Below, piece by piece: positions 1 to 29,008 of a stretch of 29,008 nt of DNA. Source of the stretch: a virus; the IMG/VR virus record IMGVR_UViG_3300036772_000559, positions 1-29,008 of that record; one strand, 5' to 3'. Position numbers and translations under genes: made by a program. The first letter of the stretch is position 1. Each line of letters opens with the position of its first letter. The notes beneath the pieces were generated by a model, which worked only from the letters and a program-made list of their open reading frames with translations, did not search any database and was not told the DNA's origin.

Positions 1-519
1 TTACAGCAGGGCGTCCATTTCCAGCAGGATTTGCTCGCACCACTGTTGCAGGCGCTCTTCGGTGAGATCAAACTGATTTACATCGTCGAGTGCCAGTCCG
101 ACGAAATGTTTGCCATCGGCACTTAGCGGTTTCGGGCTGGTAAATTCAAAGCCTTCAGTCGGCCAGAAACCGATAAAGCGAACTCCCAGCGGCACCAGCT
201 GATGGTAAAGCATCCCAAGCGCGTCGAGGAACCATTCGCCGTAGCCGAGCTGGTCGCCCATACCGTACATGGCAACAATTTTGCCGCGTAATTTAAGCGT
301 AGGAAGTTGATTCCAGACGGCTTCCCAGTCTTCCTGAATTTCGCCGAAATCCCATGTCGGGATGCCGAGGATCAGGATGCTGTAGTCTTCCATCACATCA
401 GGATCAACATCTTTAATGTTGTGCAAATCAACCAGTTCTTCGCCCAAAATGTCGCGAATTTTTTCCGCAGCCATTTCGGTGTAACAGGTGCTGGAACCGT
501 AAAAAAGTCCGATTTTCAT
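1..519 (-). CDS. fldB: Flavodoxin 2 (FldB)
   Basis: This is a 172-residue short-chain flavodoxin, a soluble FMN electron carrier of the cytoplasm. The FMN phosphate loop is the GSSTCYT segment at residues 8-14. The two isoalloxazine loops are PTWDFGE at about 54-60 and [11 protein letters not shown] at 86-96. The length and near-identity around these loops match enterobacterial FldB. The start codon is supported by an AAGG ribosome binding site about six bases upstream. In E. coli fldB is adjacent and divergent to xerD; here int lies 64 bases upstream on the same strand, so the prophage occupies the 5' flank of the gene. The native promoter is probably displaced to the far prophage end, and int transcripts could read into fldB. 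It is the only clearly chromosomal gene in the window. Confidence 0.96.
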
Positions 520-532
520 ATTAACCTTTCTA

Positions 533-604
533 AATCAACCTTTTGCAATCATTTCAATAAGTTGAAAGATGGGTAAAGGGTAGTTAAGGGGTGTTAGGGG
601 TATT
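533..604. other. Probable attL region (host/prophage junction)
   Basis: The junction must lie between the fldB ribosome binding site (about 525-530) and the 3' end of int, because int is a phage gene and fldB a host gene. The stretch contains a perfect 6-bp inverted repeat TTTCAA-TAAG-TTGAAA at 552-567, a plausible core-type integrase site, followed by short G-rich repeats. The exact core cannot be set without the attR copy, which is outside the window. Confidence 0.55.
570..604. repeat. Tandem AGGGGTRTT-like repeats, candidate integrase arm sites
   Basis: Four imperfect copies follow one another: TGGGTAAAG at 570, AGGGTAGTT at 577, AGGGGTGTT at 587 and AGGGGTATT at 596. The spacing is 7, 10 and 9 bp. 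The last two copies also encode the Asn-Thr-Pro repeat that ends the integrase. Tyrosine integrases of lambdoid and P2-like phages bind short repeated arm sites flanking the core, so that role is inferred from position and repetition only. Confidence 0.4.
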
Positions 605-1636
605 TTCTGCCGCCTTTTTGCCGCCACTTTGGATCTTTGCTAACGGGTTAAAGCTGATGGCTGTATCAAGATGCTCAGGTGCAAAGTGGGCGTAGCGCAT
701 GGTCATACTAATGTCTTGGTGGCCTAGTATTTTTTGAAGTACAAGGATGTTGCCGCCGTTCATCATAAAGTGCGCAGCAAATGTATGCCGCAGTACATGA
801 GTTAATTGCCCTTTCGGGAGTGAAATAGTTGAGTGGCTCAAAAGTGTCAAGAAAGGATAATAGCAATCAGCAAAAAGTCTCTCGCTTTTTATGGCAGTGA
901 GTTCCTTGTAAAAATCTTCCGAAATTGGAACCGTTCTATTTTTTTTACCCTTGGTATTTATAAAGGTGATTTTATTAGGGCTTAGCTGGCTTTTGGATAG
1001 AAATTGAGACTCGCTCCAGCGTGCCCCCGTTGAAAGACAAACCCTAACGACTCGATTCAAATCAATGTTATTCCTAGTTATTTCCAAAATTTCATTAACT
1101 TGGTCGTCATCAAGCCAGGACATTTCTCTATCGCCCACACTAAACTTTCTAAGGTTTTTTAAGGGGTTTGGAATTTTCCATTCTTCAAGCCTTATCAATT
1201 CCTCAAACATAGCGTTCAGGTAGGAGTGATCAAGGTTGACCGTCACAGGACTGGATCCCTTATCGAATCGATTATCTAATTTGATTTCACCTGTTAACCG
1301 TTTATTTCGATAATGTGCAAAATCTTTGGCTGTAAAGGCTGCGGCTAAGGGATTACCTAAGGCAATAGACATGAGTTCTAATTTCTTATGAATCATTTTA
1401 CCAGCCACCAATGATTGGCCGTGCAAGTCATACCAGAGCTGTGCAAGTTCTTTTAACCGCCTTGTATCGGGTTTGTCCCCTAACCAAGGTTTTGAACCGG
1501 CCTCGCTCATTACATGCTGCTCATATGCTAACGCTTCCCCTTTGGTGACAAACGTTTTTCGAATTCTGCGTTTGTCCCGCCCTGCTGGGTAGCATTCACA
1601 TAGCCATTTTCCAGTGGGAAGCTTTCTTACTGACAC
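584..1636 (-). CDS. int: Prophage integrase, tyrosine recombinase
   Basis: The 350-residue protein catalyses site-specific integration and excision. The N-terminal 50 residues (KLPTGKWLCECYPAGR and on) form the arm-binding type domain of HP1/P2 integrases. A SAM-like core-binding domain spans about 55-165 and the catalytic domain about 170-325. The catalytic set is visible: Arg206 in STGARWSES, Lys229 in NTKGKKNRT, His280 and Arg283 in THVLRHTF, His306 in LGHQ, and the nucleophile Tyr315 in TMRYAHF. The Asn-Thr-Pro-rich tail overlaps DNA repeats that may be its own arm sites. It lies at the left prophage end pointing to the host junction, downstream of the repressor gene with an 18-base gap, so the two probably share the lysogenic transcript. 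Base composition is more AT-rich than the late genes. Confidence 0.95.
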   Translation of the reverse strand: MSVRKLPTGKWLCECYPAGRDKRRIRKTFVTKGEALAYEQHVMSEAGSKPWLGDKPDTRRLKELAQLWYDLHGQSLVAGKMIHKKLELMSIALGNPLAAAFTAKDFAHYRNKRLTGEIKLDNRFDKGSSPVTVNLDHSYLNAMFEELIRLEEWKIPNPLKNLRKFSVGDREMSWLDDDQVNEILEITRNNIDLNRVVRVCLSTGARWSESQFLSKSQLSPNKITFINTKGKKNRTVPISEDFYKELTAIKSERLFADCYYPFLTLLSHSTISLPKGQLTHVLRHTFAAHFMMNGGNILVLQKILGHQDISMTMRYAHFAPEHLDTAISFNPLAKIQSGGKKAAENTPNTP

Positions 1637-1654: not shown

Positions 1655-2218
1655 TCAAACCTGTTGAAATACCGTATCTACTTTAGCGAGCAATTTCAGA
1701 TCAAGAATTCCACAATCAAAAGTAATTTCATCATTACTAACTCGAATCTTCTGTCCCGGTAGCCGCTGAATTTTCCTTACGCTAGAGCTTCCATCAATAT
1801 CGACTAGCCAAACCCCATCAGCCAAATCTTCATTAGCAAAATCCACGATGTAGGATTTAGGCCCCTCAACCAAAACACCTGGTTTTTTTAGCGATACATT
1901 CAGCATGACTTTATCGAACATGACATATCCAGCCGGATGTGTAGTCCCTTCTGAAAGTTTCATTTTGGGTACTTTTAAGGTGTCAATAACCTCGTTATCG
2001 AACATTCTTCCTTCGCCACTGGTCAGCCATTTTAAATCTGCACCGGTTTTAAGTGCGCATTGGATCACCCAGTCAGCTGGAAATATATCCCGCATGAATC
2101 TCGATGCCATCGTGCTTTTGGAAACGCCCAGTTCATTGCACAAGGCCTGCCGCGTTGTAAAACCAAATGCATCCATCATGCGATAAATGGCAGCTTGACC
2201 ACCTTTCTCAAAATCCAT
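1655..2218 (-). CDS. cI: CI-type lysogeny repressor (186-like)
   Basis: The 187-residue protein has an N-terminal helix-turn-helix at about residues 20-41 (FTTRQALCNELGVSKSTMASRF), of the Bac_CI_repr type seen in phage 186 and relatives, followed by the ADWVIQCALKTGADLKWLTSGEG signature at about 48-70. The C-terminal part (about 95-187) would be the oligomerisation domain. I see no clear Ser/Lys self-cleavage dyad with an Ala-Gly cleavage site, which fits the 186 type, where an antirepressor rather than RecA-driven cleavage induces the prophage. It is transcribed leftward from the switch region, ahead of int. Its likely targets are the GAACCC-type repeats at 2221-2299. The start is supported by a GGGG box in front of the ATG and by the family N-terminus. 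Confidence 0.88.
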   Translation of the reverse strand: MDFEKGGQAAIYRMMDAFGFTTRQALCNELGVSKSTMASRFMRDIFPADWVIQCALKTGADLKWLTSGEGRMFDNEVIDTLKVPKMKLSEGTTHPAGYVMFDKVMLNVSLKKPGVLVEGPKSYIVDFANEDLADGVWLVDIDGSSSVRKIQRLPGQKIRVSNDEITFDCGILDLKLLAKVDTVFQQV

Positions 2219-2357: not shown

Positions 2358-2588
2358 ATGAACAGCAATATTACAATCTCTCTCGCAACCCCTCATGTAA
2401 CAAAAGAACGCTATTCCGAACTTACCGGGATTGATGAGGCAACCATTAAGGCAATGCTTAAGGATGGTCGCTTATCTGCCTATCGTCACCGCTTGAGACG
2501 TGATGGCGGGCGTGAATTAATTCTTATCAATCTGGCTGCTTTAACGGTTGATGCAATTTCCAGTCACGAACTTAAGTTCTCAAACTGA
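2358..2588 (+). CDS. cox: Cox/Apl-like excisionase and regulator
   Basis: The 76-residue protein has the size and layout of P2-type Cox or 186 Apl. A short N-terminal winged-helix segment (VTKERYSELTGIDEATIKAMLKDGRLSAY, about 14-42) contains the recognition helix, followed by a basic stretch (RHRLRRDGGRE) and a beta-rich end (LILINLAAL). Such proteins bend DNA at att to favour excision and repress the lysogenic promoter. It is the first gene of the rightward operon, right after the switch region, which is the expected place. The ribosome binding site is weak (CGGGA about 10 bases upstream). The call rests on fold pattern and position more than on close sequence identity. Confidence 0.78.
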   Translation: MNSNITISLATPHVTKERYSELTGIDEATIKAMLKDGRLSAYRHRLRRDGGRELILINLAALTVDAISSHELKFSN

Positions 2589-2614
2589 TTATGAATACTT
2601 TCAATGGGGTTCAT

Positions 2615-3124
2615 ATGTTTGATTATCAGACCTCTATACATCCGCATTTGGATACTGCTTGTCGCCGCTTCTCTCAGACTCACAATCTGGCTGAACTTGC
2701 CGCTGATATGGGGGTTTCTGCACAGGTATTACGCAACAAGCTGAATCCAGACCAGCCGCACCGTTTAACGGTAAACGAGCTGATCTTACTGACAGATATC
2801 ACTGATGATTCGGCGGTTCTGGACGGTTTGCTGGCACAGCTGAAATGTTTACCTGCTGTGCCGGTGAATGAAGCGAAGCCAAATAATTTACCGATGCACG
2901 CTTTGAGTGCTACGGCCGCAATTGGCGTTATTGCCGGTGAAGCCATTTCCCCTGCGCCTATGACGCAATCACGTAGAAACGCCATTTTAGACCGAGCCAA
3001 TCAGGCGATCCGCGATCTGTCCTTGCTCGTTGTGTCTGTTGAGTCGCGTTTTCACACCACGCCAGTGCTGGCATCTGCAATGGACGTTTTGAGTTCATGC
3101 GGTGTTATGCCTGGTTTGAACTGA
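2615..3124 (+). CDS. cII: CII-like regulator (phage 186 CII / CP76 family)
   Basis: Read from the ATG at 2615, the protein is 169 residues, the same length as 186 CII. It begins MFDYQTSIHPHLDTACRRF, as in that family. A helix-turn-helix is predicted at about 22-42 (NLAELAADMGVSAQVLRNKLNP), and the family motif HRLTVNELILLTDITDDS follows. 186 CII activates the establishment promoter for the repressor. An upstream ATG at 2591 would add eight residues but lacks a ribosome binding site, whereas the chosen start has GGGG five bases before it. It lies 26 bases after cox and 9 bases before the next gene, as one early operon. Confidence 0.9.
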   Translation: MFDYQTSIHPHLDTACRRFSQTHNLAELAADMGVSAQVLRNKLNPDQPHRLTVNELILLTDITDDSAVLDGLLAQLKCLPAVPVNEAKPNNLPMHALSATAAIGVIAGEAISPAPMTQSRRNAILDRANQAIRDLSLLVVSVESRFHTTPVLASAMDVLSSCGVMPGLN

Positions 3125-3133
3125 GGCTATTCG

Positions 3134-3337
3134 ATGAAAGTTTTAGCACAACTATTAAAGCAGCAATCGCCAACTGCCCAGCTTCCGAGCTATGGCCACG
3201 GGTGGCTTGAGTTGCCAAACGGTCAGCGTTGGCAACCGGCAGCCAGCAAAGTGGCGTTTCTAAGTGGTCAGCGTCACCCGATGGTGAAGATTAAGCGTCG
3301 CCCTTGGTGGTTCCGCCTGATGGGATTAAGGGGGTAA
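3134..3337 (+). CDS. fil: Fil-like small early protein (DUF2724 type)
   Basis: The 67-residue basic protein carries the pattern GHGWLELPNGQRWQP (about 22-36) followed by SKVAFLSGQRHP, which I recognise as the DUF2724 / 186 Fil family found just after cII in P2-like phages. 186 Fil halts host cell division when expressed. The C-terminus (MVKIKRRPWWFRLMGLRG) is unusually basic and aromatic. A GAGG box precedes the start. The family call is from memory of the motif and position; the filamentation effect in this phage is inferred. Confidence 0.65.
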   Translation: MKVLAQLLKQQSPTAQLPSYGHGWLELPNGQRWQPAASKVAFLSGQRHPMVKIKRRPWWFRLMGLRG

Positions 3338-4177: not shown

Positions 4178-4441
4178 ATGCAGATGAAACGTAATGATCG
4201 CAACCAACTTCCCGCCCTTTGGTGCGGATGGGATGCCGCAAAAGCTGGCTGTGAGCAAACCGCCATCTTAATTAAAGGCGCACGCGCTGAGGCAATGGCA
4301 GATGCTGCTGTGAAGTATTCCGGCCACTTAGATCGCCTTGCTGCACATATCACCCTCAGCGGTTTGAGTGCCGCCGAGATAGTTGAGCTTTTGTGCCAAG
4401 AGTCTGACCAACTTGCACGCATTGGGAGCGGTGAAATATGA
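4178..4441 (+). CDS. Small early protein of unknown function (possibly DUF2732-like)
   Basis: The 87-residue protein has an N-terminal part with a short LPALWCGWD aromatic motif and a helical C-terminal half (HLDRLAAHITLSGLSAAEIVELLCQESDQLA). The size, position and the LDRLAAHI segment recall DUF2732 proteins of P2-like phages, but I am not sure. The start at 4178 has GGAG seven bases upstream. The stop overlaps the methylase start by four bases (ATGA), which suggests coupled translation with dam. Confidence 0.75.
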   Translation: MQMKRNDRNQLPALWCGWDAAKAGCEQTAILIKGARAEAMADAAVKYSGHLDRLAAHITLSGLSAAEIVELLCQESDQLARIGSGEI

Positions 4442-5241
4442 AAACTGTCTTGAAATGGGCGGGATCCAAGGTTCGCATTATTGAGGTATTGAAGCGTCAC
4501 CTGCCTGCTGGCCAGCGTCTTGTTGAACCGTTTGCAGGTTCTTGCGCAGTGATGATGAATACTGACTACCCGGCTTACTTTATTGCTGACGCAAACCGCG
4601 ATCTGATCGATATGTACGAGCTGATAGCAGAGCAACCGGCCGCTTTTATCCAGGCGGCTGAGGCGTTATTTGAAACGGGGAATACTGAGGAGGAATATTA
4701 CCGTTTACGCTTTGCATTTAATTCCAAGCCAGCTGGTGATAAAGACCGCGCCCCGCTTTTTCTCTACCTCAACCGTCACTGTTTTAACGGGTTGTGCCGG
4801 TACAACAAAAAGGGCGAATTCAACGTACCTTTCGGCAAATACAAAAAACCGTACTTTCCAAGAAACGAAATTCTGGCATTCGCTGAAAAAGCCAAGCTGG
4901 CCACGTTCCTTTGTGGGAACTACAGCGAAGCATTGAAAGCTGCGCAATCTGGTGACGTGGTTTATTGCGATCCACCATACCTCACAGAAACAGCTAATTT
5001 CACCGCTTATCACTCTGACGGATTCGGGCATGAAGAACATGGCAGGTTAGCCAGAAGCGCACGCCGTTTGGCTGGCCGTGGCGTGCCGGTGGTCATTTCT
5101 AACAGTGATACAGATATGGTGCGTTATCTCTATAAAGATTTTGCCATCAATAAAATCACCGCGCCGCGCAGTATCGGAGCGGCGGCCGGCAGCATCAAAT
5201 CTGCCCAGGAGGTGATTGCAACCGTGGCGTGGGATTGCTAA
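4438..5241 (+). CDS. dam: Dam-type DNA adenine-N6 methyltransferase (D12 class)
   Basis: The 267-residue enzyme transfers a methyl group from S-adenosylmethionine to adenine, probably in GATC. Family marks in order are KWAGSKVR at 6-13, the SAM-binding motif PFAGSCAV at 31-38, NRHCFNGLCRYN at 112-123, GEFNVPFG at 126-133 and the catalytic DPPY at 178-181. Motif I reads FAGSCA, where E. coli Dam has FVGAGS, so one glycine is replaced by cysteine. Length and order match phage Dam enzymes such as those of HP1-like phages. It is translationally coupled to the small gene before it, and the initiator gene starts directly after its stop. It may protect phage DNA from GATC-specific nucleases or tune replication and late gene timing. 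Confidence 0.93.
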   Translation: MKTVLKWAGSKVRIIEVLKRHLPAGQRLVEPFAGSCAVMMNTDYPAYFIADANRDLIDMYELIAEQPAAFIQAAEALFETGNTEEEYYRLRFAFNSKPAGDKDRAPLFLYLNRHCFNGLCRYNKKGEFNVPFGKYKKPYFPRNEILAFAEKAKLATFLCGNYSEALKAAQSGDVVYCDPPYLTETANFTAYHSDGFGHEEHGRLARSARRLAGRGVPVVISNSDTDMVRYLYKDFAINKITAPRSIGAAAGSIKSAQEVIATVAWDC

Positions 5242-7395
5242 ATGGCATCTTTCGTTAACGGGCAGCATCATGAAACCCGCCAGTGGCAGCAAGAGCAATT
5301 TGCCCCTGGCGCACCTGATGAAATCAGCCTGACCGAGCGGCAGTTATGGCACCTGAATAAAGCCGATCACGACTGGCGTGCTGAGTATCTGGGCGAAATG
5401 CCGGATTTCTTGGCGCGCTATTTTGGCGATCGTTACAGCAAGTTATTGGAGAGTGGCCATAACGGCCGCCGCCGTGCCAATACGTTTTTACGCACTACGG
5501 TGGGTAAGAGCGTATTGCCACGTCTGCGCAATGTCTGCGAACAGTACACAACTAAACATCAGGCTGCGGGGGTTATTCCTTTCCCGTTCCTGGCTGACCT
5601 TGAAAAACTTCCTACCTTTGGCCGTGATGAACTGCGTAATCTCGCGCACCGCGTAGCTGATTTTATGTCTGAGTCATTCACCGATTTTATTGATCTGGCT
5701 TTTGACGGCGCAGCTGCTGATCAGAAAGAAATGACGCGCCGCACTTTTGCCACCTTTGAGCATCTGGGAAAGTTGGCCAAAATGGCTGGGATCACGCCGC
5801 CATACTGGCAGCAATTTCTTTCAGGTCGCACTTTCACAACCCGCACCGCGGAATCCGGTCTATTGCGCATGGTTGCACCGGAGTGGTGGCGTACAAAGTT
5901 AAAACGCCGCCGTGATCTGCAGCGTGAACATATGGCCATCGCCGTTGGCCAGGTTCAAAAAGCGGCATCGGCTTACGTTAGCCGTTCCACGCAAGGGGAA
6001 TGGGTGGAACAAAAGAAACGTAACCGCGAATTCTTTAAAGCCCGTGATATGCAAAACCTTGAAACCGGCGAACGTAAATCATTGGCTGAGTTAGTGGACG
6101 GGAGCAACGCCAACCCGGCAAAGCGCCGCTGTGAATTGATGGTGAGAATGCGCGGGTTTGAAGACTTGGCCACTGAAATGGGAATGGCCGGAGAGTTTTA
6201 CACGATCACCGCGCCGTCAAAATATCACGCTGTTCACAGTAAAGGCGGGTTCGTGTCTCAGTGGAACGCGGCCAGCCCGCAGCAAACACAAAAATACCTT
6301 TGCGGAGTGTGGGCAAAAGCCCGCGCTGCGTTTTCCCGCGCCGGGATCCATGTCTTTGGTTTTCGCGTAGTCGAACCACATCACGACGGGACGCCGCACT
6401 GGCATATGCTGCTGTTTATGCGGCCGTCAGACGTGGCCGAGGTACGGGATATTCTCTGTTACTACTCCCGGCTTGAAGACTCCGAAGAACTGCAATCCGA
6501 ATACGCGCTTAAGGCGCGTTTTCACGTTGAGCCTATCGATCCGGAGAAGGGGAGTGCAACCGGCTACATTGCTAAATACATTTCCAAAAATATCGACGGT
6601 TACGCCCTGGACGGGGAAGCCGACGACGAAACCGGCGAAAATTTGAAAGATATGGCCAGGGCGGTATCTGCCTGGGCAAGCCGCTGGCGGATCCGTCAGT
6701 TTCAGCAAATCGGCGGTGCGCCGGTGACGGTCTGGCGTGAGCTGCGCCGTATGTGTGATATCACCCTGGAAAATAAATCTATGGATGCCGTGCTGGCTGC
6801 TGCGGATGTGGGGTGCTGGGCATCCTATACCCAAGCACAGGGCGGGGCGTTGGTGGCGCGTCGTGATCTGGTTGTGCGCCTGATGTATGAAATCACTGAA
6901 TGCGGCAACGAATACGGGGAAGCTGTTCAGCGTATTCAGGGGGTTTATTCGCCGTTATCGGGTCAGGAATCAGAGGTATTAACGCGCCTGGTTAAGTGGG
7001 CGATTGTTCCGAAGTTGGCCGACAGCGCAGCGGAGGCTGCTTTTACTGGCGGCATCGCCGCCCCTTGGAGTTCTGTCAATAACTGTACTCAAAGTACGAT
7101 CACCGAGTTGAAAAAGGGCATCGGTATTCAGTCCCAGGATGCTGGCCAGATGGCCAAAGCGCTGGCCAGGGGCAATATTGTGCCGCTGGATCGGGAAACA
7201 GAAATGAAATTAGAGGGCAACCGGCTGGTAGTGAGGCGCAAAAAGCAATATTGCAGGGAGTGCGGGGAAGTCATCACGCCTCAAAGCGAGTCATTTGATT
7301 CCCCAGGCATGTGCTGGGTGTGTGCCGATGGCCTTGTTTTGCAGGTGGATCAGAGTGATGCCGTTAACCGGGCATTTGAGGCGTTGGGGATTTAA
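5242..7395 (+). CDS. A: Replication initiator, P2 gpA-type HUH endonuclease
   Basis: The 717-residue protein nicks the origin and attaches to the 5' end to start rolling-circle replication. The metal-binding HUH motif is His386-Trp-His388 in DGTPHWHMLLF. The tyrosine motif is GYIAKYISKN, with Tyr442 and Tyr446 four residues apart, as in the two-tyrosine enzymes of the P2 A and phiX174 A class. The N-terminal 300 residues are the family-typical helical region. An added C-terminal CxxC...CxxC knuckle (Cys671, 674, 691, 694) may bind zinc. In P2 the origin lies within the A gene, so the nick site is probably inside this frame; I could not locate it. The start codon follows the dam stop directly. 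Confidence 0.93.
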   Translation: MASFVNGQHHETRQWQQEQFAPGAPDEISLTERQLWHLNKADHDWRAEYLGEMPDFLARYFGDRYSKLLESGHNGRRRANTFLRTTVGKSVLPRLRNVCEQYTTKHQAAGVIPFPFLADLEKLPTFGRDELRNLAHRVADFMSESFTDFIDLAFDGAAADQKEMTRRTFATFEHLGKLAKMAGITPPYWQQFLSGRTFTTRTAESGLLRMVAPEWWRTKLKRRRDLQREHMAIAVGQVQKAASAYVSRSTQGEWVEQKKRNREFFKARDMQNLETGERKSLAELVDGSNANPAKRRCELMVRMRGFEDLATEMGMAGEFYTITAPSKYHAVHSKGGFVSQWNAASPQQTQKYLCGVWAKARAAFSRAGIHVFGFRVVEPHHDGTPHWHMLLFMRPSDVAEVRDILCYYSRLEDSEELQSEYALKARFHVEPIDPEKGSATGYIAKYISKNIDGYALDGEADDETGENLKDMARAVSAWASRWRIRQFQQIGGAPVTVWRELRRMCDITLENKSMDAVLAAADVGCWASYTQAQGGALVARRDLVVRLMYEITECGNEYGEAVQRIQGVYSPLSGQESEVLTRLVKWAIVPKLADSAAEAAFTGGIAAPWSSVNNCTQSTITELKKGIGIQSQDAGQMAKALARGNIVPLDRETEMKLEGNRLVVRRKKQYCRECGEVITPQSESFDSPGMCWVCADGLVLQVDQSDAVNRAFEALGI

Positions 7396-7428
7396 TGCAA
7401 GCTGAAAACTCGCAAAAGCACGCGCAGT

Positions 7429-7459
7429 TTGCTTTTATTCTGTAACATTTTGCGATACT
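7429..7459 (+). promoter_or_regulatory. Promoter of the SOS-controlled small gene
   Basis: TTGCTT at 7429-7434 and the extended -10 TGC-GATACT at 7451-7459 are separated by 19 bp, long but workable with the TGn extension. The LexA box overlaps the -10 and the start point. This is the only promoter-like signal in the 101-base gap between the initiator gene and the small gene. Confidence 0.55.
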
Positions 7460-7475
7460 GTACATTCATACAGTA
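7456..7475 (+). promoter_or_regulatory. LexA operator (SOS box)
   Basis: TACTGTACATTCATACAGTA matches the enterobacterial LexA consensus TACTG-(TA)5-CAGTA at all ten outer positions and is near-alternating inside. It lies 22 bases before the start codon of the 68-residue gene and overlaps the -10, the usual arrangement for LexA repression. Confidence 0.9.
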
Positions 7476-7496
7476 AATGATTAAGGAGATTGGGGG

Positions 7497-7703
7497 ATGC
7501 AGGATTTATTTTTTGAGGAAATCGCAGTGCAGCGGATGGCTTTGTTTTCGCGGTTGGTCGCTGTTGGGGACTGTGATCAGGAAGAAAAATCGTTAGCACT
7601 GGGTTGGTTAGCTGAGTTGAATGCTGAGTTGTTGAAAAATCTGCGGCAGGCAGAAAAGAAAAACCCCCAAAACGGGGGCAGTAATTCAGGCTTGTTGCAG
7701 TAG
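7497..7703 (+). CDS. SOS-controlled small protein, candidate antirepressor
   Basis: The 68-residue protein is preceded by a strong AAGGAG box eight bases from the ATG and by a near-perfect LexA operator, so it should be made on DNA damage. The sequence is one or two amphipathic helices (LFFEEIAVQRMALFSRLVAV; LALGWLAELNAELLKNL) with a polar Asn/Gln/Gly-rich end and no membrane segment or signal. It does not look like DinI or like the longer Tum protein of 186. In 186-type phages a LexA-controlled product inactivates CI, and this gene is the best candidate for that job here; that is inference. The last 18 bases overlap the convergent ogr-like gene, and its 3' part contains the terminator of the opposite strand. 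Confidence 0.8.
   Translation: MQDLFFEEIAVQRMALFSRLVAVGDCDQEEKSLALGWLAELNAELLKNLRQAEKKNPQNGGSNSGLLQ
7652..7678 (-). terminator. Intrinsic terminator of the leftward late operon
   Basis: On the minus strand the sequence reads CCCCC-GTTTT-GGGGG (7678 to 7664), followed at once by TTTTTCTTTTC. It lies just after the ogr-like stop codon and ends the terminase-portal-activator transcript. It sits wholly within the coding part of the plus-strand 68-residue gene and lacks a U-tract in that direction. Confidence 0.85.
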
Positions 7704-8000
7704 CGAAAGCATCATTTGGCGGCCATCGGCAGTTAGTGCATTGGCGACGCTTTTTACCATTTCTTCCTGAGAAATCGCGCTTGGGCTAATGGTGCTGGCA
7801 AATGACAAATGCATTTTAAACGTATGGCCGCATTCAATATTTGTGCAACTGCAATACAGGTCTGAAAGTTCCCTATGCTTGCGTACCGTTTTCTTAATCA
7901 CGGCGTTTGAATTACATGCGGTACAAATCACTTTCGACACGCGCATATTGTAGGCTCCAGGGAATTGATTACCCCGTGATTTTAGCCTTTTGCGGCTCAT
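7686..8000 (-). CDS. ogr: Ogr/Delta-like zinc-finger late transcription activator
   Basis: The protein belongs to the Ogr/Delta family, which binds upstream of phage late promoters and contacts RNA polymerase. The zinc-binding cysteines are in VICTACN and, about 25 residues later, DLYCSCTNIECGHTF. The C-terminal tail (SFASTISPSAISQEEMVKSVANAL) is the family extension seen in HP1-like members. Two starts are possible. At 8000 the gene overlaps the portal stop by four bases with a strong GAGGG box (104 residues). At 7946 (MRVSKVICTAC) it has GGAG eight bases upstream and fits family N-termini better (86 residues). As the last gene of a late operon it probably drives its own further expression. 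The likely DNA target is the inverted repeat at 10856-10881. Confidence 0.88.
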   Translation of the reverse strand: MSRKRLKSRGNQFPGAYNMRVSKVICTACNSNAVIKKTVRKHRELSDLYCSCTNIECGHTFKMHLSFASTISPSAISQEEMVKSVANALTADGRQMMLSLLQQA

Positions 8001-9028
8001 TTTTCACCCTCTGATGTTGTGTCAAAGGCGAAGTTTAGCCGCAGATGAACCGGAATTTCCGGGTCACTGTTGACTGCGTTCATGATCATGCGCTGCAACG
8101 GGATCACTTCATCCTTTCGATACGTTGTACGGGACTTTTCCGGATCAGGTAAACCCGCTGTATTTTGCGGAATAATACCCGCCAGGCCAGCCGGGAATCG
8201 GTGGGCGTTCAGCACATCCTGTGCGCTGATGTTCTTCACGTTGTTGAATTCGTCGTTCGCCCCGATATCCCCCACCGGAATAAACTGGATCGCTTTTTCG
8301 CCACCCTGGGGAATATTCACAAAAATGGTGGAGAAGTTCCCGATCCCTTTGCTGCTTTCCAGACGCTGCGCAATTTCTTCCTCTACTTCATCGGTCATAT
8401 TCGCGTCATTGGTGTAGATGATTCCGCCTGTATGCGCCCCGTTGTGGTAGTAGCGACGGCGGAAAATGGTTGCCTCACTGTTGAGCAAAGCCGAGTGAAT
8501 GCCGCTGATGTAATCCGGCAGGCCATAAATCTGTTGCTGCGGATCGTACTGTTTCAGGAAAATCACATCATCCGGGCTGTATACCAGCGGTTCACCGTCC
8601 TGCAGAACCACAAATTCGCCTGTTTTACGCACGCGCAAATACAGAGATGGCAGCGGCAACAAATCCACCACGTCACGCCATCCGTTACGCACTTTCAAAA
8701 TGGCCAGGTCACCACAGGACAAATAATCAAACACGCCACCGCGCAGCTGCTCATGCGTCAGTCCACCGCCCTGGTAATCTGATGCCACCATATTGTGGCG
8801 GGCATAAATTACGCCGCCGTGCTGGCTGTTGAGGTTCGTCAGTTGAACCAGTGCCAGGCGGTCAATCGGCAGGGTGTAGTGATCGAATTCATTGTCATAC
8901 CAGATATCCCGGTAATTCGTGCCGGTGGTCAGGATGGGTTCCGGGCGCCCCATGCTGATGATGCTCATTTTTTTGCTGCTGTCTGTCTGGGCTTTCTTTG
9001 CCTGGCGTGCTGGTTTGCGTTTGCTCAT
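7997..9028 (-). CDS. Q: Portal protein (P2 gpQ type)
   Basis: Read from the ATG at 9028, which overlaps the terminase stop by four bases, the protein is 343 residues, against 344 for P2 gpQ. An upstream ATG at 9052 would add eight residues but has no ribosome binding site. Family segments include ILTTGTNYRDIWYDNEFDHY near the N-terminus, GDLAILKVRNGWRDVVDLLPL, YGLPDYISGIHSALLN, RRRYYHNGAHTGGI and the C-terminal HRFPAGLAGIIPQNTAG. Twelve copies would form the ring at the capsid vertex through which DNA is packaged. It lies between the large terminase and the late activator in the leftward operon. Confidence 0.95.
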   Translation of the reverse strand: MSKRKPARQAKKAQTDSSKKMSIISMGRPEPILTTGTNYRDIWYDNEFDHYTLPIDRLALVQLTNLNSQHGGVIYARHNMVASDYQGGGLTHEQLRGGVFDYLSCGDLAILKVRNGWRDVVDLLPLPSLYLRVRKTGEFVVLQDGEPLVYSPDDVIFLKQYDPQQQIYGLPDYISGIHSALLNSEATIFRRRYYHNGAHTGGIIYTNDANMTDEVEEEIAQRLESSKGIGNFSTIFVNIPQGGEKAIQFIPVGDIGANDEFNNVKNISAQDVLNAHRFPAGLAGIIPQNTAGLPDPEKSRTTYRKDEVIPLQRMIMNAVNSDPEIPVHLRLNFAFDTTSEGEK

Positions 9029-10812
9029 GCTGCTTTCTTCCCTAAGTTCCATTTAGATTTACGCTTATGCTCAAAGTTGATCGGCTCGTTAATGATGGCG
9101 TGCGCGATTGCCCAAAAGGCATCGGCGTGTCCGGTTTCAACCGTGCGATCTGCTTTGAACGTCATCGCGTTGCCGCTGGCCGTGCTGGTGTGTCGAATGG
9201 ACAGGAAAGACGCGGCAATTTCCCGATTGTCTTTGTTCCATTCCAGGCGTTTTGCGCCGATAACGTCGATCATCTTTAATACCAGGCGCGTTTTGGTTTC
9301 CATGCCGTAGTGAATGGCCACCGCCTCACGCAAGGCAAAATGTTCTATCAGTTCAAAAACGCCCCGGCCAATGCCGGTCACGTCCACGCCGATGTAAGTC
9401 ATGTTGTACTTCCCAAACAGCTTTTTGATCTGCGCTGCCTGGTACGCAAAGTTCATCCCCTTCCAGTGGAAAAGGCAGAGCACGCGGAATTTTTCCACCG
9501 CATAAAGCGGCGGGGCAACGATGGCAAACGTGGATGTGTCGCCAGAACGCGCCGGGTCAAAGCCCCCCCATACCTCACGGTTACCGAACGGCCGTTCCGC
9601 ATTTGGGTCATGGTCTTGCCAGTCGGCCACGTCCACGCCGCAAATTTCCAGGTCACTGAATTTGAAAACGCTGTCTTTACTGTCCACGAACACGCACATA
9701 TACAGCATGTTGAACGTGTCACGGTTGTAGCGGTTGCGCAGCTTCTCAATGCTGGCCAGGTTAAACCCGCCCTTGATCGCGTCCTCCATCGTGATGATGT
9801 ATCGCCACTGGCCATCCGGGCAGAGGCGGCCGCCGTTGCGCATTTCATCAAAGGTCGGAAAAGTGACTTTCTCGCGCTTCTTATCGCCGCGCTTCCATTC
9901 TTCCCCCGTCCAGAAGGGGTAAGCCTGGTGCGTTTTGGCGCTGGGCGTCGAAAAATAGGTGGTTCGCCAGTGGTCATGCGTGGCCATTGCGCTGGCCACC
10001 TCGTTAAGCTTGGCGAAGTTCGGCACCCAAAAGTATTCGTCGCAGTACAAATGGCCACTGTATGACTGCGCGGTGTTTTTATTGGTGGACAGAAAGCGCA
10101 GCTCTGCGCCGTTGCTTAGTCTGATCGGGTTGCCGGTCAGCGTGATGCCGAAATACTGCTCTGCGATGTTGACGATGTAAGAGCGGAATACCTCCGCCTG
10201 TGCTTTGGAAGCGGAAAGGAAAATTTGCGGGTCGCCGGTCATGACCGCATTTTCGAATGCCTCAATAGCAAAGTACCAGGTTGCACCAATCTGGCGGCTT
10301 TTCAGTATGTTCCTGATCTGTTGTGCCAGGTTGTTGCGCAGGTGCTTCTGATAGCCGAATAAATGTTCCTCTGCGAAAGCGTCAAAATCTTCCTGTGATA
10401 ACCCGGAGATATCGTTTTTCTTATATTTGCGCTTCTTCACCGGCTCTGCGCCGTCACTGTTCCCGCCCTGGCTGTCAAATCCTCCCTGGTTGCCAGATTT
10501 GGCGGCGGCCATTTTTTCCTTATGCTTATTTGTCTGCGCACGCAGTTTCACCGCGTGAGCAATCAGCACATCTATCTCTTTTAATTCCAGCTCTGTTTTC
10601 TTATCCCGGCCAACTAATAATTGGTAACGGCGTTCTATGGCTTCCTCTGTTGATTCATGGCTGAGTAAATCAGCCCATTTCCCTTTTTGCGCCCAGTAGT
10701 AAATGATCCGCGAATTCGGCAGATTTAAATCCTGAGCAATTTCCTTTGGCGTGGCACGGCGCAAATATAAAGCGCGGGCAACGTCTTTTAGTTCGTCTGT
10801 GTATTTAGCCAT
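9025..10812 (-). CDS. P: Terminase large subunit, ATPase and nuclease (P2 gpP type)
   Basis: The 595-residue packaging motor compares with 590 for P2 gpP. An N-terminal helix-turn-helix (ATPKEIAQDLNLPNSRIIYYWAQ, about 20-42) is followed by a charged linker to about 130. The ATPase domain shows a Walker A-like KSRQIGAT at 171-178, Walker B LYCDEYFW with Asp258-Glu259, and TTYFSTPS at 284-291 as coupling motif. The nuclease domain has Asp419 (GGFDPARSG), Asp477 (YIGVDVTG) and Asp564 (GHADAFWA). No ribosome binding site precedes the ATG; instead a CATAAT hexamer ends six bases before it, so the late transcript may start at or next to the start codon. Confidence 0.95.
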   Translation of the reverse strand: MAKYTDELKDVARALYLRRATPKEIAQDLNLPNSRIIYYWAQKGKWADLLSHESTEEAIERRYQLLVGRDKKTELELKEIDVLIAHAVKLRAQTNKHKEKMAAAKSGNQGGFDSQGGNSDGAEPVKKRKYKKNDISGLSQEDFDAFAEEHLFGYQKHLRNNLAQQIRNILKSRQIGATWYFAIEAFENAVMTGDPQIFLSASKAQAEVFRSYIVNIAEQYFGITLTGNPIRLSNGAELRFLSTNKNTAQSYSGHLYCDEYFWVPNFAKLNEVASAMATHDHWRTTYFSTPSAKTHQAYPFWTGEEWKRGDKKREKVTFPTFDEMRNGGRLCPDGQWRYIITMEDAIKGGFNLASIEKLRNRYNRDTFNMLYMCVFVDSKDSVFKFSDLEICGVDVADWQDHDPNAERPFGNREVWGGFDPARSGDTSTFAIVAPPLYAVEKFRVLCLFHWKGMNFAYQAAQIKKLFGKYNMTYIGVDVTGIGRGVFELIEHFALREAVAIHYGMETKTRLVLKMIDVIGAKRLEWNKDNREIAASFLSIRHTSTASGNAMTFKADRTVETGHADAFWAIAHAIINEPINFEHKRKSKWNLGKKAA

Positions 10813-27352: not shown

Positions 27353-29008
27353 ATGAAGCCCATTAAGCGGTTGTATTTGTCGAGTGTGGCCACGCACCTG
27401 GTGGACGCCAATCTGGCATTAGAGTTAAGCGCCTGCGGCCGGGGATTTATCACCGCGCAGACGGATGAAGATTACACCGGCAAACTGGTGCGCCTGGACG
27501 TGGGGTATCACGATCTGGTGTTGCGCTGGTTCACCGGTTTTGTGGAGCGTTCGCAGCCTGCGGAAAACGGCTATCAGCGCCTTTTTGTGCGTGAGCTGGT
27601 CGGTGTGTTTGAGCGCCTTTGGCCGTGCTCTTTTCAGCATCCTACGCTGCGGCAGATCACCCGCTGGTTGACCGAGGAAAGCGGGCTGGAATTTTCCCTG
27701 GCAAAAGATGCCGCGTATAACGATACGCCGATCCCCCATTTCACCCATTCAGGCACCGGCTATCAGCTGTTAGCCAACCTGGGCAAGGCATTCAGCATTA
27801 CCGATTACGTGTGGTATCAGTTACCGGATGGCGGGGTGTTTGTCGGTGCGGCCGCTGATGCGCTGTTTGCCGGTAAACCGGTAGATATTCCCGCCGAATT
27901 TAACCAAAGCGTTGCCGCAGGCAATGCCATGACCGTGCCGTTGATCCAGTCTTTACGCCCTGGCGTAGAGGTGAACGGTCAGCGTTTAACCAAGGTCAGA
28001 TTGCATAACGATGATATGGAAATCACCTGGACGCCACGCAACAAAGCCACCGGCCAGGCATTGCAGAAAACTCCGTTTCAACGGCAGGTTGAAAGCAGTT
28101 ATCCAGAGCTGGCCAGCGGCTTGCACCTCCCGCAGTTCGCCAGGGTGGAAGCGCCCAGCGAAGATGTGAGCAACGGGAACATTGCCGATCCGTTCCGGCC
28201 ACGTTATGCCGTGGACTTGCAGCTGTTAGACGCAGACGGCAATCCGGCAAAAGACACGCCGCTTTATCCGGCCGTGCCGCTGCCGCTGCCAATGGCGGGC
28301 GGTGAGTCCGGGATGTTCCAATTTCCACCGCCTGGCACGCTGGTAGAAGTCGGGTTTAATGGCGGCCGTGCGGATAAGCCGTTTGTGCGCCAAACCCTTG
28401 CCCAGGGCAACAGCCTCCCCGCCGTGACACCGGGCGAACAGCTGCAACAGCAGCGTGATGGTGTATCGCAGCGCGTCACCGTGGCGGGCGACTGGGAACG
28501 CCAGACCGATCAGGTTATTCGTGAAACCTCAATGAGCCGGGTTGTCACGGCCGATGATGAAACCCGCACGCTGGTGGCCAGGGAAACCACGGTACAGGCC
28601 ACGGACAAAACCACGGTACTGGGCAAAGCCACCTTGCTGGCCGGGGCAATACAGCAGATTGCCCAGGGGGATTACAGCCTGGCCACGCAGGCCAATTATG
28701 TGGCCAACATCCAGGGCAATGCCGAAACCAACGTGATCGGCCAGTTGATTGAAAAGGTGGGTAAGCTGCGCAGTAGCGTGGCGACCACACGCCAGGAAGT
28801 GATTGCGCCGGTGGTGTGGATTGGTAGCCAGTCTATTAACGTCTGCCAACTGATGCTTGATACCCTGGACGTGGTGAAGCAGTTGGCGGAGCTAACCGCT
28901 GCGCATTCACATAACAACACCGGCACGCCGTTAAATGCGCTGGCCATTGTAGCCACCGGCACCAAAGCCACTACGCTAAAAGAGAAGTACAATCCGGTAA
29001 TCGGATAG
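27353..29008 (+). CDS. Baseplate hub and spike fusion (gp27/gpD-like plus gpV/gp5 OB domain)
   Basis: The 551-residue protein ends on the last base of the window (TAG) and is complete. The N-terminal half (about 1-270) resembles phage late-control gpD / gp27 hub proteins (LSACGRGFITAQTDEDYTGKLVRLDVGYHD; HPTLRQITRWLTEESGLEF; GTGYQLLANLGKAFSITDYVWYQLPDGGVFVG). An OB-fold of the gpV/gp5 type follows at about 280-360 (FRPRYAVDLQLLDADGN; YPAVPLPLPM; FPPPGTLVEVGFNGGRADKPFVRQTL). The rest is a repetitive beta-helix-like needle with many Thr/Val/Gln repeats (about 370-490) and a helical end. P2 has hub (D) and spike (V) as separate genes. The start has GGGGTAAGGG directly before ATG. Confidence 0.87.
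   Translation: MKPIKRLYLSSVATHLVDANLALELSACGRGFITAQTDEDYTGKLVRLDVGYHDLVLRWFTGFVERSQPAENGYQRLFVRELVGVFERLWPCSFQHPTLRQITRWLTEESGLEFSLAKDAAYNDTPIPHFTHSGTGYQLLANLGKAFSITDYVWYQLPDGGVFVGAAADALFAGKPVDIPAEFNQSVAAGNAMTVPLIQSLRPGVEVNGQRLTKVRLHNDDMEITWTPRNKATGQALQKTPFQRQVESSYPELASGLHLPQFARVEAPSEDVSNGNIADPFRPRYAVDLQLLDADGNPAKDTPLYPAVPLPLPMAGGESGMFQFPPPGTLVEVGFNGGRADKPFVRQTLAQGNSLPAVTPGEQLQQQRDGVSQRVTVAGDWERQTDQVIRETSMSRVVTADDETRTLVARETTVQATDKTTVLGKATLLAGAIQQIAQGDYSLATQANYVANIQGNAETNVIGQLIEKVGKLRSSVATTRQEVIAPVVWIGSQSINVCQLMLDTLDVVKQLAELTAAHSHNNTGTPLNALAIVATGTKATTLKEKYNPVIG

Follow-up and report, generated by a model that had tools for sequence, protein, structure and literature searches.

The stretch of DNA analyzed here in its whole length of 29,008 bases, referred to as the window, holds a P2/186-like prophage adjoining the host gene fldB (1-519, minus strand). 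The integrase gene (584-1636, minus strand) lies beside fldB and is followed by genes for a 186-type CI repressor (1655-2218, minus strand), a Cox-like excisionase and repressor (2358-2588, plus strand; phrog_575, E 5.9e-19), a CII-like activator (2591-3124, plus strand; PF06892, E 1.1e-44) and a Fil-like protein (3134-3337, plus strand; PF10893, E 2.2e-19), a Dam-like gene (4438-5241) so labeled from synteny with relatives, replication gene A encoding gpA (5242-7395, plus strand; PF05840, E 7.2e-105), a gene of 68 codons (7497-7703, plus strand), and genes for an Ogr/Delta-like zinc-finger regulator (7686-8000, minus strand; PF04606, E 3.2e-12), the portal protein (Q; 7997-9052, minus strand; PF04860, E 3.5e-13) and a gpP-like terminase large subunit (9025-10812, minus strand). 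The 68-codon gene, whose product is called ORF68 below, is therefore placed after gene A on the packaging-gene side, and it is convergent with the ogr-like gene, with which it shares an 18-nt overlap. No P2-type cos motif was found above chance in the window.

The original prediction described a LexA box with a perfect outer consensus and a strong ribosome binding site in front of this gene, and both are borne out. The sequence TACTGTACATTCATACAGTA at 7456-7475 (no strand assigned) is the only one in the window that fits CTGT-N8-ACAG with zero mismatches, and TAAGGAG (7482-7488, plus strand) stands 8 nt before the ATG. The box ends 21 nt 5' of the gene, is conserved upstream of relatives and agrees at 17 of 20 positions with the canonical LexA operator. 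Sites with at most one mismatch number 11 in the window, which is not unusual (shuffles average 6.9, and 10 of 100 reach 11); a matrix built without the window, on 46 distinct perfect boxes taken from its relatives' loci, scores the box at 27.5 and the best other site in the window at 3.6. A consensus promoter scan found no promoter at this place. According to the 186 record the LexA site at p95 covers the -10 element, and TACTGT at the start of the box is common to the window and to 186 p95; on the strength of the 186 arrangement, the promoter of the 68-codon gene is presumed to lie under the box, with TACTGT as its -10. LexA probably binds at 7456-7475. The intergenic stretch between gpA and the box (7396-7455, plus strand) appears strongly conserved by eye across 15 window-type viral loci, and the fold of 7396-7450 is no better than that of shuffled sequences (z -0.57).

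The CI repressor of the prophage, which is the proposed target of ORF68, matches PF07022 and PF16452; the S24 peptidase expected of a lambda-type, cleavable CI gave no match at E<=1, and the nearest solved structure is that of 186 CI (2fjr, E 7.7e-30). This agrees with the earlier description of a 186-type CI lacking an obvious self-cleavage site. An antirepressor made during the SOS response, as argued earlier, is likely.

ORF68 has no match at E<=1 in Pfam or NCBIfam, and it falls into a PHROGs family of "unknown function" (phrog_698, E 1e-16). The original prediction proposed a profile search of the 68-residue protein against Tum and DinI; the search assigns it to the N-terminus of 186 Tum and not to DinI. 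A profile of 14 window-type proteins matches residues 1-56 of 186 Tum with 29.4 bits (E 3.8e-8 at Z=1000), the best of 1000 shuffles of that segment (986 scored) reaching 8.8 bits, and it matches Fels-2 TumA with 51.3 bits. PSP3 TumA yields 5.8 bits with the same profile, below the best shuffle; the window protein matches a Fels-2-type TumA profile that includes PSP3 with 45.5 bits, and it is by way of this Fels-2-type profile that the window protein is connected to PSP3 TumA. PHROGs provide an independent sequence-level link of ORF68 to Tum and TumA: the N-terminus of 186 Tum matches phrog_698 (2.4e-5), phrog_8554 and phrog_1993, the last being the family of PSP3 TumA. The homology covers the N-terminal 45-50 residues or so of Tum. 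TumB and the C-terminus of Tum do not match the ORF68 family, which accordingly contains no DinI-like half of the kind found in the fused protein. The DinI halves score at most 4.1 bits with the window-type profile, so the protein is, as had been claimed, not DinI-like and a relationship to DinI is rejected; the only DinI-family match of ORF68 is to phrog_189 (E 0.068) in columns 7-49, where the N-terminus of 186 Tum also aligns. A tblastn search with ORF68 against 50,697 phage records at E<=1 retrieved 65 records, all below 60% identity, 10 of which cover at least 80% of ORF68; ESSI-2, ESSI2_ev, SEN8, Fels-2, RE2010, SopEPhi and Klebsiella phages are among those matched.

The original prediction had read the gene as a distinct class of induction switch, pointing to a product much shorter than 186 Tum and to a position unlike that of tum, which is found at the genome end. 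The difference in length is real (68 against 146 aa) but is not a sign of a new class, because ORF68 is shorter for want of the DinI half. The positional argument fails. In the 186 record (30624), gene A ends at 28828, the LexA site occupies 29044-29063 and tum 29082-29522. Since tum is thus located between A and the right end and the packaging genes presumably start at the left end of this linear record, tum occupies the slot between A and the packaging genes on the circular or prophage map, which is the slot of the 68-codon gene as well. A LexA-controlled antirepressor of a novel class, with no kinship to Tum, would fit a short protein without a Pfam or NCBIfam match and without a DinI domain, but it is largely refuted by the profile match; given that ORF68 is homologous to TumA and the N-terminus of Tum and that its gene sits in the identical genomic slot, we reject it as very improbable. 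Kinship with the antirepressors of Gifsy or N15 was likewise rejected, there being no match to the TumA profile in six-frame searches of Gifsy-2 1-25000 and N15 20000-46000, in which GftA and AntC were not singled out; the best E value in the Gifsy-2 part was 1.3.

The coding sequence shows selection at the protein level. Its core, codons 2-52, is under purifying selection, with a pooled dN/dS of 0.21 and a pS of 0.405 among 14 window-type sequences. Codons 53-68 are depleted of synonymous change (pS 0.083); the overlap with the ogr-like gene and a terminator-like stem-loop of the leftward portal-ogr operon (7663-7679, minus strand, read from 7679 to 7663) are both located there, and the presence of this stem inside the coding sequence may account for the conservation of the C-terminal tail, which is probably disordered. 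An AlphaFold2 model based on 26 sequences predicts two helices (residues 5-23 and 28-55) forming a hairpin encoded by codons 5-55 (7509-7661, plus strand), with the nearly invariant Cys26 in the turn; pLDDT is at least 90 in 40 of 68 residues, residues 59-68 fall below 50, and pTM is 0.60. No solved structure related to ORF68 was found by sequence or fold, and a fold search with the hairpin returned nothing at E<=0.001, the top matches being generic helical proteins. A transcript starting at the LexA box and acting mainly as an antisense RNA to the ogr-like late activator would account for the convergent overlap and for the DNA-level constraint on the last 16 codons, but hardly for protein-level selection in codons 2-52 or for the retention of the protein in relatives with other downstream neighbors, and we give this explanation almost no weight. 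ORF68 is probably produced as a protein during the SOS response of the lysogen.

Related loci were collected by scanning viral contigs with proteins of the window, Fels-2, ev015 and 186 (15, at least 80, at least 80 and at least 80 loci, respectively), to which one Rahnella genome locus, nine named-phage loci and the window were added; 265 of the 266 loci were scored, one (L232) being dropped since no start codon was assigned. Among the 265 loci listed, 80 encode a fused Tum, 85 a split pair and 100 a stand-alone TumA (74, 81 and 93 among loci listed with at least 1.5 kb downstream), figures that describe this collection and are not prevalences. Over the length of their sequence, neither the window nor any of the other 99 stand-alone loci listed, one of which (L061) ends 66 bases after the gene, shows a DinI-like ORF (E<=1e-4). 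The surroundings are shared widely: gpA lies upstream in 244 of the 247 loci listed with at least 2.5 kb upstream, and a 186-type CI upstream on the opposite strand in 203 of the 204 listed with at least 6.5 kb of flank (the exception is L070). A LexA box with at most one mismatch occurs within 130 nt upstream for 120 of the 123 distinct TumA/Tum proteins listed, many of them close relatives, and a perfect one for 114, as against 203 and 14 of 5932 control stretches, respectively. For the remaining three proteins the box is perfect but is followed at once by a group II intron, with the gene beyond it.

This intron has features of its own. It is 1.9 kb long (Rfam RF02005, 186.6 bits; RVT_1 protein) and starts exactly one base after the LexA boxes (L027:6050-7957, L248 from 6073 and L127 from 6075; further copies in L267-L320). 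A sample of 58 insertions in 54 viral contigs contains 33 distinct 5' flanks, 31 of which carry CTGT-N8-ACAG at one and the same offset (without mismatch in 27, with a single one in four); tandem intron copies and one unrelated flank (L312) account for the rest. A same-strand ORF of at least 40 codons begins within 120 nt of the intron 3' end in all 17 rows that include this end (three of them tandem copies), a count made without a control, and by eye these ORFs include UmuD-like, DinI-like and Tum proteins, which suggests that the intron may bring its own expression under SOS regulation. The intron is present in 219 of 5426 E. coli genomes, with plasmids making up 230 of 275 places, and the exact 19-base intron 5' end occurs in none of 394 species genomes. 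The literature matches listed include no report of intron placement behind LexA boxes.

A protein search of 394 genomes of the order with profile A1 gave 16 matches in 14 genomes, namely the known Rahnella locus and 15 new ones, three of the matches closely resembling fused 186 Tum. In every one of the 16, a perfect LexA box starts 33-80 nt upstream of the start codon; gpA is present in 15 of the short loci and about 1 kb upstream in the refetched region of the sixteenth, and a 186-type CI in 13 of 15 refetched regions, the two misses (L342 and L348) being only about 5 kb long. A DinI-like partner is found in six of the 16 short loci and is missing from the other ten. In one of the loci examined (L325, minus strand, about 1632-1438), a Tum-like gene ends after 64 codons and no DinI-like ORF occurs in the locus; the DinI half has apparently been lost there in nature. 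Another prophage that carries TumA has three tandem PF16452 CI-like matches (L345:2636-4518). Taken with the 100 stand-alone cases among the 265 loci listed, the ten DinI-less genome matches make the DinI part of Tum look like an optional add-on. TumA is not universal among phages with a 186-type CI. Searching the 394 genomes with PF16452 yielded 51 matches in 37 genomes, 16 with A1-model TumA matches; a further 31 CI regions were examined, some of them short contigs (G324, G378, G109 and G360 were left out). In the 14 of these that contain gpA, a broader TumA model matches two, one with a perfect LexA box (L387) and one a TumA-like gene with no perfect LexA box in the locus (L390), and finds no TumA in the other 12. 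In nine of the 12, gpA is followed within 2.7 kb by a perfect LexA box. Among these more distant phages with a 186-type CI, L397, L398 and L400 carry right behind the box, in the tum slot, a small ORF unmatched by the TumA model, and L407 has a 49-codon ORF after a perfect box; these are possibly other antirepressors or remote TumA relatives, and PHROGs returned nothing convincing for two of them.

How closely TumA is matched to its repressor was assessed with 224 of the 265 loci, those with sufficiently complete CI, CII and gpA, which were reduced to 149 by dereplication. TumA distances correlate with those of CI (rho 0.71), gpA (0.73) and CII (0.50), and within each architecture they track gpA and CII better than CI, giving no sign of tight co-evolution between TumA and CI; co-evolution as evidence of contact was therefore rejected. 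The partial correlation of TumA is 0.47 with the CI N-domain and 0.04 with the C-domain, where the missing correlation may reflect saturation because this domain is so divergent. TumA proteins that differ at 5% of positions or fewer occur in 1145 pairs of dereplicated loci; in these pairs the median identity is 69% for the CI N-domains and 36% for the C-domains. The window and L003 provide an example: TumA is identical over the compared stretch and gpA is 87% identical, and the two CI domains are 46% and 39% identical. The CI N-terminal domain has a near-invariant stretch around C54, E57-G59, W64, G68 and G70. Near-identical TumA proteins facing very different repressors may mean either that a constant feature of CI is recognized or that the pairing is loose, and with modest confidence we favor the former. 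It is possible, if on balance doubtful, that DinI-less TumA is a broad-spectrum antirepressor that grips a conserved feature of the CI N-domain and leaves the C-domain free to diversify. Were this so, prophages differing in immunity could induce each other, and the pattern of one TumA with many CI proteins turns prophage cross-induction into a testable question.

The same pattern would also fit a Tum-family gene under LexA control that had ceased to act on CI and taken another role at the time of SOS, so that the prophage would not be SOS-inducible through it; the absence of a specific TumA-CI tie in the distances within architectures and the loss of the DinI half point in the same direction. 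Such a change of role is nevertheless unlikely, given the selection on codons 2-52 described above and the joint retention of LexA box, tumA and a 186-type CI in almost every locus that allowed a test. We propose instead, with a probability of roughly 85%, that the gene is a stand-alone tumA, encoding the antirepressor domain of the 186 Tum family without a DinI-like partner and disarming an uncleaved CI during SOS. Since ORF68 matches the front half of Tum, the gene is most likely the ordinary induction switch in a shortened form and not a new kind. In the lysogen, LexA on the box over the -10 would keep tumA off. Upon DNA damage LexA would be cleaved and tumA transcribed; the helical-hairpin protein would then bind the 186-type CI, which would release the early lytic promoter uncut, and the early operon with cox and A would turn on. 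When LexA returns, production of TumA would stop and CI could take over again. Binding of TumA to CI, inhibition of CI DNA binding and loss of repression are putative here; in the 186 record, Tum is annotated as a protein that "inhibits CI DNA binding". This proposal gives a likely function to the "unknown function" families phrog_698, phrog_8554 and phrog_1993, and a minimal antirepressor of about 50 residues would be a convenient object for structure determination with CI.

Among known systems, 186 Tum (146 aa) resembles ORF68 in its homologous N-terminal residues, a LexA site over the promoter, a location after A and a 186-type CI, and differs in its C-terminal DinI-like half, the alignment of residues 72-142 to DinI being its only PDB match. 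PMC3121763 states that Tum binds its repressor, and PMC7708051 describes the LexA-controlled p95-tum unit as inducing through CI inhibition. PMC3121763 also reports that tum is split in Fels-2 and PSP3 and cites a personal communication that the upstream half in PSP3 encodes antirepressor activity. The PSP3 annotation calls tumA "similar to 5' end 186 tum; UV induction of prophage" and tumB "similar to dinI and 3' end of 186 tum". TumA of PSP3 and the 62-aa homologues in Fels-2, RE2010, SopEPhi, SEN8 and E. coli HS (60-62 residues across PSP3 and the Fels-2-like phages) are like the window gene in size, slot and LexA box, but in these a DinI-like gene lies directly downstream, where the window has a convergent ogr-like gene; in Fels-2, SEN8, RE2010, SopEPhi and Klebsiella ST15-OXA48phi14.1 the homologue sits between gpA and the DinI-like gene. 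In a P2-like prophage of E. coli HS, a LexA box precedes the gene for a 62-aa TumA, and a DinI-like gene comes next. For DuoHS, a P2-like prophage of E. coli HS, PMC12055606 reports that deletion of tum abolished mitomycin-induced lysis and that a non-cleavable LexA also stopped it; given the split arrangement, the 62-aa gene is likely the tum referred to there. Stand-alone TumA is the subject of none of the literature matches listed.

GfoA and GftA of the Gifsy prophages are, according to PMC3121763, small and LexA-controlled and have an uncleaved repressor as their target; that repressor is a different one, and the TumA profile has no match in the first 25 kb of Gifsy-2. A literature search found no report that ESSI-2, a phage without DinI, is inducible by mitomycin; PMC6969025 says that ESSI-2 was described with clear plaques. 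The ESSI-2 homologue (NC_047854, 20601-20795) has no annotation in the public record. Cronobacter phage ESSI-2 and Escherichia phage ESSI2_ev015 share with the window the order A, tumA, convergent gene and portal, the convergent gene being annotated as "transcriptional regulator" in the former and "putative phage gene" in the latter; like the window, they have no DinI-like gene annotated nearby, and their tumA homologues, unannotated or labeled "hypothetical", encode proteins 46-51% identical to ORF68.
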